From positions 1 to 36,776 of the forward strand of contig DYJH01000016.1 of NCBI GenBank assembly GCA_020723255.1: a stretch of DNA of 36,776 bases, read 5' to 3'. The stretch's first letter is position 1, and each line of letters begins with the position of its first letter. This stretch comes from Desulfonema limicola. Lineage in GTDB: Bacteria; Desulfobacterota; Desulfobacteria; Desulfobacterales; RPRI01. A model generated the notes under the pieces. The model saw only the letters and a program-made list of their open reading frames with translations. It was not told where the DNA came from and did not search any database. A program made the position numbers and the translations under genes. Shown piece by piece: positions 30,928 to 36,776 of this stretch.

Positions 30928-31157
30928 GGGAATAGTCCGTCCACTCTGCTTCAATTTTAAGATTATAAATCAAATATCAAAACTTATATTTCGCTATAGT
31001 GTTAATCGACATATATTTACTTAATACAAAATATTATTTACTGTCAAGGAACTTAAAAAGACCTTGTGAAATAATATATAATTTGCAAGAATCAGTTTGG
31101 CGGTGATAAATATAGATATTTCTTAACCAAAAGAATGGGATAGCGTTGAGGATTATA
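30928..31157. promoter_or_regulatory. Divergent intergenic region
   Basis: This 230-base AT-rich interval separates the CsgG-like gene (minus) from the aminotransferase gene (plus) and must hold promoters for both. I see no consensus pair I would defend. Confidence 0.3.
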
Positions 31158-32303
31158 ATGCCAGGATATTTTTCCGATAATGATTTTAATGAAAATGCGA
31201 TTGAACAGGAATACCGTAAGGCTGAAAAGAAAAAAAACTTTATAAATCTTACAAGCAGCAATCCGACTCATGAAGGCCTGTTTTTCCCTTTTGATATTTT
31301 GAGAACGGCCGCAATATCATACCTTTGCCAACGAAGATATGACCCAGATCCGAAAGGACTTTATACTGCCCGTTTGTCTATATCCGATTATTACAAAAAC
31401 CGGGCGCCTTCATTTGAAATATTGCCCGATAACATTACTATCACAGCAAGCACAAGTGAATCTTACGGTCTTTTGTTTGCTCTTCTTGCAGATCCGGGAG
31501 ATAATGTACTTGCTCCGAAAATAAGCTACCCTCTGTTTGAGCATCTTGCAGCCATTCATCATTTGGAATTGTGCACTTATGAGATGGATGAAAATAACGG
31601 CTGGCGAATTAAGGAAAACAGCATCCTTTCAGAATATGATAGCCGGACACGGGCGATTATAATTGTTTCACCTCATAACCCTACAGGGATGGTTATAAAA
31701 GAACCCGTTTCCATGCTGAACAGGCTGAACATCCCGGTAATATGCGATGAGGTATTTGCAGAATTTCCATGTTCAGTTGCAAATATCCCTTCATTCGGAT
31801 GTTTGCATCCTGATCTAACTGTTTTCCATCTTAATGGAATTTCCAAGATGTTTGGCCTTCCCGATTTAAAACTCGGATGGATTGCATCAAGCGGCTCCGG
31901 TTCAAAAGATTTTCAAAAAAGACTTGATCTGTTAAACGATACTTACCTTGGTGCAAATTACATGGTACAATCAATGCTGCCCGCAATTTTTAAAAAAGGA
32001 ATGGATTTTATTAAGCAAATGAGAAAACATATTCATACGGGCATCGATCTTGCAGTCGAATTGCTTTCACAAAATACTAATATCAGAGCAACCCGTCCGG
32101 AAGGGGGGTATTATCTGTTCCCGGAAATAAAAAACTGGAAAGATGAAGAAAAGCTTGTATTGCACCTTTTAAAAAATGAAAGCATACTGGTTCACCCTGG
32201 TTATTTTTATGACTGCGATGATAAAACACACATCATGATTTCCTGCTTAACTGAAACAAAAAAACTGGCTGAAGGGCTTAAGCGCCTTATTGCCGCAATC
32301 TGA
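31158..32303 (+). CDS. PLP-dependent aminotransferase, class I/II fold
   Basis: The 381-residue fold-type I aminotransferase has SNPTHEGL near the N-terminus, SPHNPTGMV, CDEVFAEF, and the PLP lysine at residue 230 in HLNGISKMFGLPDLKLGW. An N-terminal cap and small C-terminal domain complete the fold; the substrate amino acid is not readable. The frame is open to TTG 31146, but ATG 31158 with GAGG seven bases upstream is preferred. It precedes the two benzoyl-CoA-reductase-like genes by 14 bases, so it belongs to their operon and may feed a 2-oxoacid or amino acid route into them, for example amino-acid fermentation through 2-hydroxyacyl-CoA; this is inference. Confidence 0.85.
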   Translation: MPGYFSDNDFNENAIEQEYRKAEKKKNFINLTSSNPTHEGLFFPFDILRTAAISYLCQRRYDPDPKGLYTARLSISDYYKNRAPSFEILPDNITITASTSESYGLLFALLADPGDNVLAPKISYPLFEHLAAIHHLELCTYEMDENNGWRIKENSILSEYDSRTRAIIIVSPHNPTGMVIKEPVSMLNRLNIPVICDEVFAEFPCSVANIPSFGCLHPDLTVFHLNGISKMFGLPDLKLGWIASSGSGSKDFQKRLDLLNDTYLGANYMVQSMLPAIFKKGMDFIKQMRKHIHTGIDLAVELLSQNTNIRATRPEGGYYLFPEIKNWKDEEKLVLHLLKNESILVHPGYFYDCDDKTHIMISCLTETKKLAEGLKRLIAAI

Positions 32304-32317
32304 TTTTTGAGGTTAAA

Positions 32318-33445
32318 ATGATAGAAAAGTTCAAGTGGATTTATGACAACAGGCATGAGTATGTCAGGAAGTGGAAAGAAAAGCATCCAGATCGCAAGAC
32401 AATGGGATATATATGCACATCCATGCCCGAAGAGATAATTTATGCAGCCAATGTTCTGCCGGTTAGGATATTAGGAGGACATGAATCCCAGAATATCAGC
32501 CAACAACATATGACGGGCATGTTTTGCCCTTTTTCCCGTGATGTCCTGGCGCAGGGTCTGCTGGGAAAATATGACTATCTTGATGCAATAGGCACCACTC
32601 ATACTTGCCAGCATATCTTTCAGGCATATGAAAGCTGGGTATTGCATAAAAATATAAAAAACTTCTACATCCCTACGCCAAATACTTCACAAACTCCGCA
32701 TGCTCTGCCTTATATGAGAGGACAACTGAAGCTGTTTATGGAAAAAGTTGAGAAGTGGATAGGAAGAACGATAAGTGAAAATGATCTGTGGCGCGGCATA
32801 GAACTGGTTGATACAACACGGCGGCTGATGAAACATATTTACGAAACGAGAAAGTCCGAAATTCCTCCGATATCAGGGCTTGATTCAATGCTGATGGTTG
32901 TTGCCTCTCAAATGTCCGATAAGGAAGAATTCAACAAAATATTGGAAGAAGTTATAAACAATGAACTTTCCGGCCATAAAGCTAAGGAAAAACCGGGAAT
33001 CAGGCTGATGCTGGTAGGCAGTGAGCATGATGATGTTAAATTTATTGAAATGGTGGAAAACCTTGATGCAATTATAGTGATCGATGATCACTGTACCGGC
33101 AGCCGTTATTTCTGGAATACAACTGAACAAGATACAGATGCGCTGACCGCTATAGCAAAACGATATCTTAAAAAGCCCCCCTGTCCTACCAGGGATTTTC
33201 CGGCACGCAACAGAACGGCTCACATTGTTAATTTGGCCAGAGAGTGGAATGTAGCAGGAGTGATAGAGGTTCAGCAAAAATTCTGCGATCCTCATGAGCT
33301 TGACAAGGTTGCTGTTTCCAAAGCTCTGGAAAAAGCAGGTTTTCCCATACTAAATCTTGAGGCTGATGTTATAATGCCTGTAGGGCCTTTCAGAATAAGA
33401 GTTGAAGCTTTTCTGGAAATGCTTGGTTCGGAAGAATTATTTTAG
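32318..33445 (+). CDS. 2-Hydroxyacyl-CoA dehydratase/benzoyl-CoA reductase subunit, BcrC/HgdB-like
   Basis: The 375-residue protein belongs to the HgdB/BcrC family, whose members carry an iron-sulfur cluster and reduce or dehydrate acyl-CoA substrates. Seen: TMGYICTSMPEEIIYAANVLPVRILGG with C33, the CPFSRDVLAQGLLGKYDYLDAI stretch with C70, C97 in TTHTCQHIFQAYESW, and PTPNTSQTPHALPYMRGQL. These cysteine positions and the motif wording match the smaller (BcrC) subunit closely. No ATPase activator (HgdC/BcrAD) is visible in the window. The next gene starts 16 bases later, encoding the partner subunit. Substrate could be benzoyl-CoA-like or a 2-hydroxyacyl-CoA; not certain. Confidence 0.82.
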   Translation: MIEKFKWIYDNRHEYVRKWKEKHPDRKTMGYICTSMPEEIIYAANVLPVRILGGHESQNISQQHMTGMFCPFSRDVLAQGLLGKYDYLDAIGTTHTCQHIFQAYESWVLHKNIKNFYIPTPNTSQTPHALPYMRGQLKLFMEKVEKWIGRTISENDLWRGIELVDTTRRLMKHIYETRKSEIPPISGLDSMLMVVASQMSDKEEFNKILEEVINNELSGHKAKEKPGIRLMLVGSEHDDVKFIEMVENLDAIIVIDDHCTGSRYFWNTTEQDTDALTAIAKRYLKKPPCPTRDFPARNRTAHIVNLAREWNVAGVIEVQQKFCDPHELDKVAVSKALEKAGFPILNLEADVIMPVGPFRIRVEAFLEMLGSEELF

Positions 33446-33461
33446 AAATACGGAGTACCAA

Positions 33462-34796
33462 ATGGCAAAATACAAAGCAGAACCTCTTAAGTGCTGGAAA
33501 AAGGCGAAAGAACTTAGAAATGAGGTTTACGATCAAATAGCAAAAGCAAGAGATAAAGGGAAGATGATTGTCGCCGGGGGTACGGAAAGCGCTATTTCGC
33601 TGCCTGCCGGTTTTGATATGGAGTTTTTTGGCGGAGAACCTTATGTTGCAGGTTGTGCTTTCATGGGCAAAAATGATTCCGGCAAATATATGAAATACTT
33701 TGAAGCAGCAGAGGCTGCAAAATTTCCCAGGGATCTTTGCGCTTGCATGCGGCTTAGCATAGGATCTTTACTTTGCAACAGCTATGCATTCGGGGGAGTT
33801 TATCCAAAGCCTGCATTTAATCTTCAAACCCATATATGTGATTCCCAGGGAAAGTGGTATCAGATAATGAGCGAAATGGAAGATGTGCCGTATAATGCTT
33901 TGGATTTTATACCGTATGAATGGGAAGTCGAAAACGAAAGCGAAGAGAGTAAAAATCTTAAGCATAAATATTTAAAAGACCAGATGCTGGATATAATCGA
34001 CTGGATGGAAGATATAACCGGCAAAAAATATAACGATGAAAAATTCATTAATGCTCTCAACTGGGAATGTGAATCGTCATCCCTGTGGGCGCAGTGCTGT
34101 ATTCTAAATCGCAATATTCCAGCCGTTATGGACGAGAAGATGATGCATTCTCTTTATGTTATAGCAGCTCTGATGAGGCATAAAGAAGCCTCTGTGAAGT
34201 TTTATAAAGAACTACTATACGAACTGAAGGACAGAGCAGAAAGAGGTATAGCAGCGTTGGCAGATGAACGCTTAAGATTATTATTTGACGGTATGCCACC
34301 CTGGCATTCTCTTGAAATTTACCGCTATATGGAAGAATTTGGAGGTGTTAGCATAGGGTCGAGTTTTTCATTCGGCGTATCAGGCGGATGGGCCTATGAC
34401 AGCAAACAGGATACGCGTATTCCGGCAAAACCACCGATAGAAGCGGGAGTGGAACTGAAAACAAGAGAAAATGCATGCTCCTGGTATGCGAAGTGGTTAC
34501 TTGAGACCAATACAGTATTAAGATCGCTGAGATTTTCAGGTCGTGGCAAGAACAGACATATTCTTGATCTGGCCAGGAAATGGAGAGCGGATGGAGTCTT
34601 GATTCACCTGAACCGGGGCTGTGAAGGTACAGCAATGGGACAGATGGAGATAAGAAGCTTTTTAGCGGAAAATGATATACCTGTTATCACCTTTGAAGGC
34701 AATCATGCCGATGTCCGGGATTTTGATTTGCCCCGGACACAAGCAACAATCAGCACCTTTATGGAAACACTTGGTTTAAGCAAACTTAAGAAATGA
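33462..34796 (+). CDS. 2-Hydroxyacyl-CoA dehydratase/benzoyl-CoA reductase subunit, BcrB/HgdA-like
   Basis: The 444-residue partner of the preceding subunit belongs to the same superfamily with the longer BcrB plan. Cysteines occur at C65, C93, C95 and C105 (FPRDLCACMRLSIG, SLLCNSYAFGG), plausible cluster ligands, and the C-terminal part ends DGVLIHLNRGCEGTAMGQME, as in the family. The frame is open to 33402, but ATG 33462 with GGAG six bases upstream avoids a 44-base overlap. Together the pair would form a heterodimer that needs an ATP-dependent electron activator from elsewhere, or works without one. The gene is convergent with the FAD oxidoreductase, 14 bases apart. Confidence 0.78.
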   Translation: MAKYKAEPLKCWKKAKELRNEVYDQIAKARDKGKMIVAGGTESAISLPAGFDMEFFGGEPYVAGCAFMGKNDSGKYMKYFEAAEAAKFPRDLCACMRLSIGSLLCNSYAFGGVYPKPAFNLQTHICDSQGKWYQIMSEMEDVPYNALDFIPYEWEVENESEESKNLKHKYLKDQMLDIIDWMEDITGKKYNDEKFINALNWECESSSLWAQCCILNRNIPAVMDEKMMHSLYVIAALMRHKEASVKFYKELLYELKDRAERGIAALADERLRLLFDGMPPWHSLEIYRYMEEFGGVSIGSSFSFGVSGGWAYDSKQDTRIPAKPPIEAGVELKTRENACSWYAKWLLETNTVLRSLRFSGRGKNRHILDLARKWRADGVLIHLNRGCEGTAMGQMEIRSFLAENDIPVITFEGNHADVRDFDLPRTQATISTFMETLGLSKLKK

Positions 34797-34810: not shown

Positions 34811-36379
34811 TTATCTTATTACTTTACCAAAATCGATGCCCAGATCTTCCATGACTATCTGTATACCGGCTCTTGCACCTCCAAATACGCCGGGGCCGGG
34901 ATGCGTGCTGGCTCCGATCATATATAATTTATCTATAGGAGTACGGTAGTTGTGCCAGCCGGAAAACGGGCGGTTTCCGGACATCTGCATATTGTACGTC
35001 CCTATCTGGCATATATCGCCATTTAACATTGTGGCATTATGTCTTTCATAAAATAAAGGAGAATGAATGGCTCTTCCAAGAATATTATCACTTCCCATGT
35101 TGGTAGCAAGATTCTGAACCTGGCCCAAAATATCATCAGCAACTTCTTTTTCTATCTCATCCCATTTTTCAGGTCCGCCATTTCTTAAAGCATAAGGAGC
35201 AAATGAATAAAGATACATCGTATGCATACCTTCAGGGGCTCTTGTCGGGTCTAGTTGTGTTGCAACAAATAATGAAAAAACATCGTTTCTCGGGATTCCG
35301 TTATCAATAGATTGAAAAGCATGCTGAAATTCATACGGGTCGGAATTATGATATGCCAGCCAGTGTGATTTGAAGCCGTTCTTCCAGACCGGCGCCTCTT
35401 TTAATGCAAGATGCTGATTCAAAGCGGAAAACCCGGAATGTTTTAATGTTTTTACGTTTTGTACAAAATCATCGGGCAGTTTACTTCCCGAAACCATACC
35501 CGGAAATACCTGCTTAATGTTTAATGTGGATAAAACCGCTTTTGAGGCCTCAATCTCATCACCGCCATCAAGAATCACGCCTGTGGCCTTGCCGCCGTAA
35601 ATCTTGAATGCCTTTACAGAGCTTGAAAGTTTGATTGTGCCGCCGAATGATTCAAAACACTTTGCTAAAGCTTCGCTTAGCATACCTGAACCGCCGACCG
35701 GAAACCCGCTGCCGTATTTATGCTGCAATGGTATGAATAGAAATAGATGAAGCCCGGTGCCTTTTGTAAACGGATTGATCATTTGTTCCGCTGAAAAACG
35801 CGTCATTACAATCCGCATCTTATCGCTTTCAAACCAGTCTTCAGCAATATCCCAGGCGCTGGATAAAAGCGCCCTGATAAGTATCCTGCCCTCAGGGCTT
35901 GAATCCATCATAGCCATTGTCTGGCCGAAGGTCGGAGTGGGATTATACATTCCCATAAGCAGCATATCCAGCAACTTAAACGACCAGTCATGAAACTTGC
36001 GGTAAGCTTCAGCATCATGCTGTGAAAACTGTGCGATGCTCTCACAGGTTCTGTCTAAATCACGGTACTGTGTAATATACGAACCGTCATCAAAATTTAC
36101 CCCTGCAAATGTATCAGGAGTAATATACTTCAGCCCGAATTTTGATAACAAACCCAGTTCATCATTTTGTATTACCGGATTCGGATAAATCAGGCCATGC
36201 CAGGTAGAACAAATATCATGCTTGAATCCCGGCGCTGTTATTTCATCAGTAAATACCCCGCCGCCTACTTTGTTTCTGCTTTCTATCACACATACCTTAA
36301 CTCCGGCTTTCGCCAGATATGCGCCTGCCATTAAACCGTTATGACCGGCACCTACAATAACTACATCATATTTCCTCAT
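34811..36379 (-). CDS. FAD-dependent oxidoreductase, phytoene-desaturase-like
   Basis: The 522-residue flavoprotein has a Rossmann FAD motif at residues 5-16 (DVVIVGAGHNGL) followed by CVIESRNKVGGG, and the C-terminal FAD closing segment (MIGASTHPGPGVFGGARAGI). It is COG1233-like, related to carotenoid desaturases and isomerases, but no other carotenoid gene is nearby. ATG 36379 has AAAGGAG nine to ten bases upstream. It lies 44 bases after the DUF1329 gene on the same strand, and is convergent with the Bcr-like genes. Its substrate is unknown; a lipid or hydrophobic CoA-linked substrate is possible. Confidence 0.82.
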   Translation of the reverse strand: MRKYDVVIVGAGHNGLMAGAYLAKAGVKVCVIESRNKVGGGVFTDEITAPGFKHDICSTWHGLIYPNPVIQNDELGLLSKFGLKYITPDTFAGVNFDDGSYITQYRDLDRTCESIAQFSQHDAEAYRKFHDWSFKLLDMLLMGMYNPTPTFGQTMAMMDSSPEGRILIRALLSSAWDIAEDWFESDKMRIVMTRFSAEQMINPFTKGTGLHLFLFIPLQHKYGSGFPVGGSGMLSEALAKCFESFGGTIKLSSSVKAFKIYGGKATGVILDGGDEIEASKAVLSTLNIKQVFPGMVSGSKLPDDFVQNVKTLKHSGFSALNQHLALKEAPVWKNGFKSHWLAYHNSDPYEFQHAFQSIDNGIPRNDVFSLFVATQLDPTRAPEGMHTMYLYSFAPYALRNGGPEKWDEIEKEVADDILGQVQNLATNMGSDNILGRAIHSPLFYERHNATMLNGDICQIGTYNMQMSGNRPFSGWHNYRTPIDKLYMIGASTHPGPGVFGGARAGIQIVMEDLGIDFGKVIR

Positions 36380-36423: not shown

Positions 36424-36776
36424 TTACTTAGACAGCATCAAGAAATTATTCACAGTAAAAAAGCCGGGATCAAGTTTTGAAGCGGGCATATACAGAAAAT
36501 CTTCCGGGGCTGCTGATAGGTTCTCTGATGAAGCGTGTCGAGTTTTTTCATCAATAAAGAGTATAGCATCCTGGTTTCCTGTGTTGTTTTTACCGCTCGG
36601 CGCCTCACTGTAGTGCACTATAAAGGAGATCCATGTCCGAAAATCACCGGATCTTTCATATACCTCCTTGTACCATATGGTATAAGTTTCCTGATCAATA
36701 TAATTTATGTGCAACCCCCAATTATAATAAGGGTCTTTAGGCCTCTGTTCCACAACCCATACCCTTCTGGGCATAT
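36424..36776 (-). CDS. DUF1329 protein, C-terminal part (cut by window edge)
   Basis: The frame is open through the right edge, so only about 117 residues are visible. RRVWVVEQRPKDPYYNWGLH, INYIDQETYTIWYKEVYERS and GDFRTW match the C-terminus of DUF1329 proteins, which are LolA/LolB-like envelope proteins, often next to RND transporters or degradation genes. The internal ATG at 36774 is not a real start. Function is not established. It is transcribed toward and probably with the FAD oxidoreductase gene. Confidence 0.75.
   Translation of the reverse strand, partial: MPRRVWVVEQRPKDPYYNWGLHINYIDQETYTIWYKEVYERSGDFRTWISFIVHYSEAPSGKNNTGNQDAILFIDEKTRHASSENLSAAPEDFLYMPASKLDPGFFTVNNFLMLSK

Follow-up and report, generated by a model that had tools for sequence, protein, structure and literature searches.

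A Bzd-lineage, putative reductase pair with a changed acyl pocket and no adjacent activator in Desulfonema limicola

The two adjoining genes described here belong firmly, by models, structures and trees, to the Bzd-type rather than the Bcr-type lineage of class I benzoyl-CoA reductases, and several residues that hold benzoyl-CoA in the characterised enzyme are replaced in them. Enzymes of this class are oxygen-sensitive and normally dearomatise the ring of benzoate, reducing benzoyl-CoA to dienoyl-CoA at the expense of ATP. We lean towards the view that they encode a Bzd-lineage heterodimer that has lost its linked activator, has a changed acyl pocket, borrows BzdPQ in trans and acts on a different substrate. 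Judged from the sequences, the real novelty is the changed benzoyl pocket, which only alignments bring out; the lineage itself is already characterised.

The window, meaning the whole stretch of DNA analysed, is the entire contig C170 (last base 36776) of a MAG assembly (G000; 3.67 Mb, 87% complete). Its relevant features are collected in Table 1. The N gene begins 14 bp past the stop codon of an aminotransferase gene and is separated from the O gene by 16 bp, all three being co-directional. For the aminotransferase, the program-made reading frame opens at TTG 31146, and a nearby downstream ATG is the likelier start. The program-made frame of the O gene opens at TTG 33402, but translation most probably begins at ATG 33462 ('MAKYKAEPLKCW'), as in its relatives.

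Table 1. Features at the 3' end of the window
Feature	Coordinates	Strand	Basis and remarks
Class I/II PLP aminotransferase	31146..32303	+	Pfam Aminotran_1_2, 122 bits; first gene of presumed operon
BzdN-type subunit, predicted [8Fe-9S] double-cubane binder	32318..33445	+	TIGR03190; BzdN of 8s02
BzdO-type catalytic subunit, predicted to bind [4Fe-4S]-OH2 and acyl-CoA	33462..34796	+	TIGR03191; BzdO
CrtO-like FAD oxidoreductase (flavoprotein)	34811..36379	-	NCBIfam search; convergent with the pair
DUF1329 gene, C-terminal part, cut by contig end	36424..36774	-	Pfam search

Lineage and distribution

Both members of the pair match Pfam HGD-D (N, 290 bits; O, 152 bits). Their top NCBIfam models are bzdN for N (374 bits) and bzdO for O (363 bits), each score lying under the curated equivalog cut-off (453.8 for TIGR03190 and 448.6 for TIGR03191), and Bcr-type models score far lower (BcrC 106 bits, BcrB 40 bits). 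Among solved structures, the best matches are BzdN (E-value 5e-109) and BzdO (6e-97) of PDB 8s02. In the trees of both subunits the pair falls inside the Bzd clade, apart from the dehydratase-type paralogues. The Bzd clade (28 rows for N, 31 for O) has SH-aLRT support of 100 in each tree, and within it the window pair forms a single clade, again with support of 100, with its relatives from genomes G005, G007 and G189. The first-pass annotation had described a BcrC- and BcrB-like pair. Two adjoining HGD-D subunits are indeed present, but their type is Bzd, and such firm placement within a characterised clade in both trees largely removes the ground for treating the lineage as new.

The same aminotransferase-N-O trio is found in G005 and G007 (the latter represented by JAHIFE010000166.1, isolate KR11_0.1_MetaG.mb.69) at 79-86% identity to the window. 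Each of these genomes also holds a bzdNOPQ operon, and the other sampled members of the genus have neither the pair nor bzdNOPQ. Within the genus the pair thus occurs only in three genomes that also hold bzdNOPQ, though these three form one clade, so that the co-occurrence with bzdPQ may reflect shared ancestry. Wider searches in samples of the phylum, order and class (395 genomes in one, 389 in each of the two others) brought up just one more close relative, at 65-66% identity, in G189 (contig C4), a genome from another family. That relative lies in a full bzd-type operon, whereas the window pair lies outside any aromatic-degradation operon.

The pair is maintained under purifying selection. 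Comparing the three genomes gives N a dN/dS of 0.08-0.10 and O one of 0.05-0.09, against 0.04-0.08 for the canonical pair encoded on contig C35 of the same MAG, and neither internal stops nor broken frames occur in the pair across the three genomes. A decaying, functionless duplicate could explain why the pair has no activator of its own, why it is less conserved between genomes than the C35 NO pair (86-89% versus 90-96% identity) and why Tyr97 is lost in the window genome alone. The low dN/dS values (0.05-0.10), the intact frames and the retention of every cluster ligand make decay very improbable.

Other Bzd-like and HGD-D loci also came up in the survey. A separate Bzd-like subfamily (G189_C2 and G454_341; L071 8419-10926 and L120 6467-8968) aligns Ala at the ligand position Cys128 of O; its loci have PQ upstream and a conserved 308-323 aa protein downstream, and in L120 two further downstream genes resemble, by their N-termini, a glycyl-radical activase and enzyme. 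An HGD-D cluster on contig C140 of the source genome (L045 8527-14489) combines two large O-like subunits, one activator and an N-type subunit that aligns, in a remote alignment, without the usual cluster Cys. As for the lower pathway, no match to Oah (TIGR03200), the ring-opening hydrolase, scores above cut-off in G000, G005, G007, G189 or G050, four of which are 97-99% complete and among which the Bzd-type operons L038, L056, L057 and L070 are found; Oah is present in G702 and G116. An unusual lower pathway seems likely in the five genomes without such a match. Absence of Oah is not a clean marker of the Glu46 type, as G702 has both Glu46 and Oah.

Activators and neighbouring genes

It had been noted beforehand that the pair has no visible activator in the window, and this holds: there is no BcrAD_BadFG match anywhere on C170. 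Nor is an activator found close to the orthologous pair in G005 or G007. The first-pass annotation had made a puzzle of this absence, which the rest of the genome dispels. A profile search of G000 gave 26 matches to HGD-D and 15 to BcrAD_BadFG. The activator-domain matches, all on contigs other than C170, include those of a canonical bzdNOPQ operon on C35 (L038), where bzdN (481 bits), bzdO (571 bits) and bzdQ (427 bits) all exceed their cut-offs. This operon further encodes an enoyl-CoA hydratase, a ferredoxin, a BzdV-like oxidoreductase, two MaoC-like proteins, a thiolase, a hydroxyacyl-CoA dehydrogenase and a hydratase (the MaoC and ferredoxin names were read from the sequence). Contig C173 carries another Bzd-related PQ set. 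From this we infer that the activator of the pair is encoded in trans.

Genome G050 provides a possible analogue. It has two bzdNOPQ operons that share P and Q at 99% identity, while identity between their NO pairs is just 68% for N and 70% for O; one activator sequence accompanying clearly diverged catalytic pairs makes borrowing plausible by analogy. The pattern in the two operons (L053 6663-8432 and L054 6061-7830) points to recent gene conversion or to duplication of the activator alone. The G189 pair adjoins its own P and Q, and this Q is 67% identical to that of C35. A literature search on activator sharing and on MbdO gave nothing usable. On contig C160 of the source genome (L041 4195-8604), a 1469-aa protein carries two activator-type domains and is thus a fused double activase.

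The aminotransferase does lie directly upstream of the pair, as was pointed out earlier, but it also exists without it. Orthologues occur in seven of the ten genus genomes, four of which (G001, G002, G004 and G006; 65-71% identity) have no pair. Since in G004 and G006 the aminotransferase sits in the same rSAM-CsgG neighbourhood and is followed by another gene, the pair seems to have been inserted after a gene that was already in place. Given that the genus also has the aminotransferase alone, it is probably a positional neighbour only, and we do not consider its role as a functional partner supported. The cohesion of the trio in G005, where the surroundings differ, leaves that role a small chance and suggests that co-transcription may matter. 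In all five aminotransferase orthologues compared, Met takes the place of the usual Arg that a structurally known relative carries near its C-terminus (motif IMIS versus IRIS; IMISCL versus IRISYA). We take this Arg to be the substrate-carboxylate arginine of the family; the aminotransferase substrate may lack a normal alpha-carboxylate or may bind differently.

The convergent genes are present as first described, but in G005 and G007 neither the flavoprotein nor the DUF1329 gene adjoins the pair, and we reject both as partners on the grounds that the neighbourhood is not conserved. DUF1329 shows a broader association of its own. The genome (3.67 Mb) has 33 DUF1329 matches, and of 12 HGD-D loci 6 (on C7, C67, C173, C165, C198 and C170) have one within 5 kb, against about 1.4 expected (P=0.001). 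This points to a function in the envelope or in transport that is linked to these acyl-CoA pathways.

Cluster ligands, acyl pocket and proposed chemistry

For residue roles, ligands and pocket sites we follow the published structure of BzdNO (PMC11971306) and its numbering. The residue mapping, made by alignment, is fixed by homology to this solved structure, at 43-44% identity and with no gaps around the sites concerned. The N subunit of BzdNO binds the [8Fe-9S] cluster through Cys 36, 73, 100, 263, 293 and 327, all six of which are retained in the window, together with Arg53, Arg267, Ser239, Gln324 and His330; Arg290 is replaced by Lys. The O subunit retains the three Cys of the [4Fe-4S]-OH2 cluster (95, 128 and 380), Glu65, Gln124, Glu381 and Gly382, so that all nine cluster-binding Cys of the heterodimer are in place.

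The acyl side of the active site is different. Catalytic roles have been given to Glu65 and to His131, which lies beside the cluster-bound water; Tyr97, Tyr298 and Gln274 hydrogen-bond the thioester oxygen, and Leu302 packs against the ring (PMC11971306). His131 is Gln in all three genomes (window, G005 and G007), which also share Q274M, Y298F and L302V; Y97C is confined to the window genome. Nearly every one of 25 Bzd sequences carries the canonical pocket residues, as does G189. His131 is not absolute, however: MbdO, of the class I 3-methylbenzoyl-CoA reductase, has no His at the aligned position. W46E was rejected as a key change, since Glu46 also occurs in C35, G189 and G702. Because two features of that enzyme's substrate site are missing and the scores lie below the curated cut-offs, the pair ought not to be classed as a benzoyl-CoA reductase.

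Are the changes concentrated at the active site? Among 100 O-subunit positions that hardly vary across the 25 canonical sequences and are unchanged in G189a, 11 are site residues. Since its split from G189, the window's clade has altered five of the 100 (131, 274, 298, 302 and 398), and four of these five are site residues (p=0.0004), a result that rests on few positions and on a site list from one paper. The enrichment is significant only for changes after that split and not over all changes of the clade (p=0.06), and the N subunit shows no enrichment at its sites.

These observations bear on two further readings. The pair might be a second benzoyl-CoA reductase isozyme, with the substrate and product of the C35 BzdNO and with the pocket changes tolerated. 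The firm Bzd clade, the full set of ligands and the G189 relative in an operon with a CoA ligase would all fit this. Against it, the four residues are near-constant in canonical BzdO, kept in G189a and altered in all three genomes, and the pair stands outside any aromatic-degradation operon; we regard an isozyme as unlikely, if still worth keeping in mind. Alternatively, the pair and the aminotransferase might together serve the fermentation of an amino acid, which would be converted by way of a 2-oxo acid and a 2-hydroxyacyl-CoA to an enoyl-CoA; the pair would then be a 2-hydroxyacyl-CoA dehydratase. The aminotransferase 14 bp upstream and the trio kept intact in G005 agree with this scheme, and in lacking His131 and having a hydrophobic side chain at position 274 the pair recalls dehydratase-type paralogues. 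However, the N subunit has the double-cubane ligands that HadC lacks and scores 368 bits with BzdN against 122 bits with HadC, no 2-hydroxyacid dehydrogenase or CoA transferase adjoins the pair, and four genus members have the aminotransferase without it. A dehydratase is disfavoured above all because all six [8Fe-9S] ligands are retained, and we consider it quite improbable. Of the two activities suggested at the outset, an unstudied acyl-CoA reductase or a dehydratase, the former is still the best reading.

The pair very likely acts as an ATP-energised, cluster-based acyl-CoA reductase. The substrate is likely still a CoA thioester, because the CoA-contact segments named in PMC11971306 are better conserved (50-71%) than the rest (40%). 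In the mechanism we propose, electrons from ferredoxin would be energised by the ATP-hydrolysing BzdPQ from C35, or by the related pair from C173, and kept by the N subunit on its [8Fe-9S] cluster. From there they would pass to the O subunit, whose aqua-[4Fe-4S] cluster would reduce the acyl group of the CoA thioester. As four pocket, thioester or water-contact residues are replaced, the acyl-CoA is probably not benzoyl-CoA in its usual pose but another aromatic or cyclic unsaturated one. Four residues are too few to read the substrate from. It is possible, though we put it forward only tentatively, that the pair is a Birch-type reductase without His131 and most of the thioester anchors, reducing an acyl-CoA outside the range of every known class I enzyme and relying on the ATP-driven activator of another enzyme in trans.

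With Glu65 and the cluster ligands kept and His131 and most of the holding residues replaced, all under purifying selection, the pair would offer a natural test case for separating the residues that set the chemistry of enzymatic Birch reduction from those that set its substrate. It also bears on whether several catalytic pairs can share a single ATP-driven activator.

Comparison with known systems

With BzdNO of Aromatoleum sp. CIB (PDB 8s02) the pair has in common, at 43-44% identity, the nine cluster Cys, Glu65, Arg53, Arg267, His330 and the CoA-contact segments. It differs by H131Q, Q274M, Y298F, L302V, W46E, S44G, A45T and R290K, by having no adjoining bzdPQ and by its scores under the equivalog cut-offs. 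MbdNO (3-methylbenzoyl-CoA reductase, PDB 9g87) is likewise a class I aryl-CoA reductase and has no His at aligned position 131, but it is distant (100 bits for N, 67 bits for O), and MbdN lacks three of the six aligned ligands. HadBC (2-hydroxyisocaproyl-CoA dehydratase, PDB 3o3m) belongs to the same HGD-D superfamily; HadC is without the double-cubane ligands, positions 36 and 263 aligning as Pro and Ala. An N-type subunit of this kind, with a [4Fe-5S] cluster, marks the 2-hydroxyacyl-CoA dehydratases (HadBC/HgdAB); the window N subunit, with all six ligands present, does not conform to it.

The C35 operon encodes an NO pair 46-49% identical to that of the window and sharing E46, G44 and T383 with it, but this pair scores above the equivalog cut-offs, keeps H131, Q274, Y298 and L302, and has its own P, Q, ferredoxin, BzdV-like oxidoreductase and lower-pathway genes. 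The nearest counterpart found outside the genus in the genomes sampled, the G189 operon on contig C4 (L070), is 65-66% identical, falls in the same clade (support 100) and shares T45 and E46. In contrast to the window pair, it keeps the canonical pocket residues and is accompanied by P and Q, a BzdV-like oxidoreductase, an SDR, a CoA ligase, a hydroxyacyl-CoA dehydrogenase, MaoC proteins, a thiolase and two enoyl-CoA hydratases.
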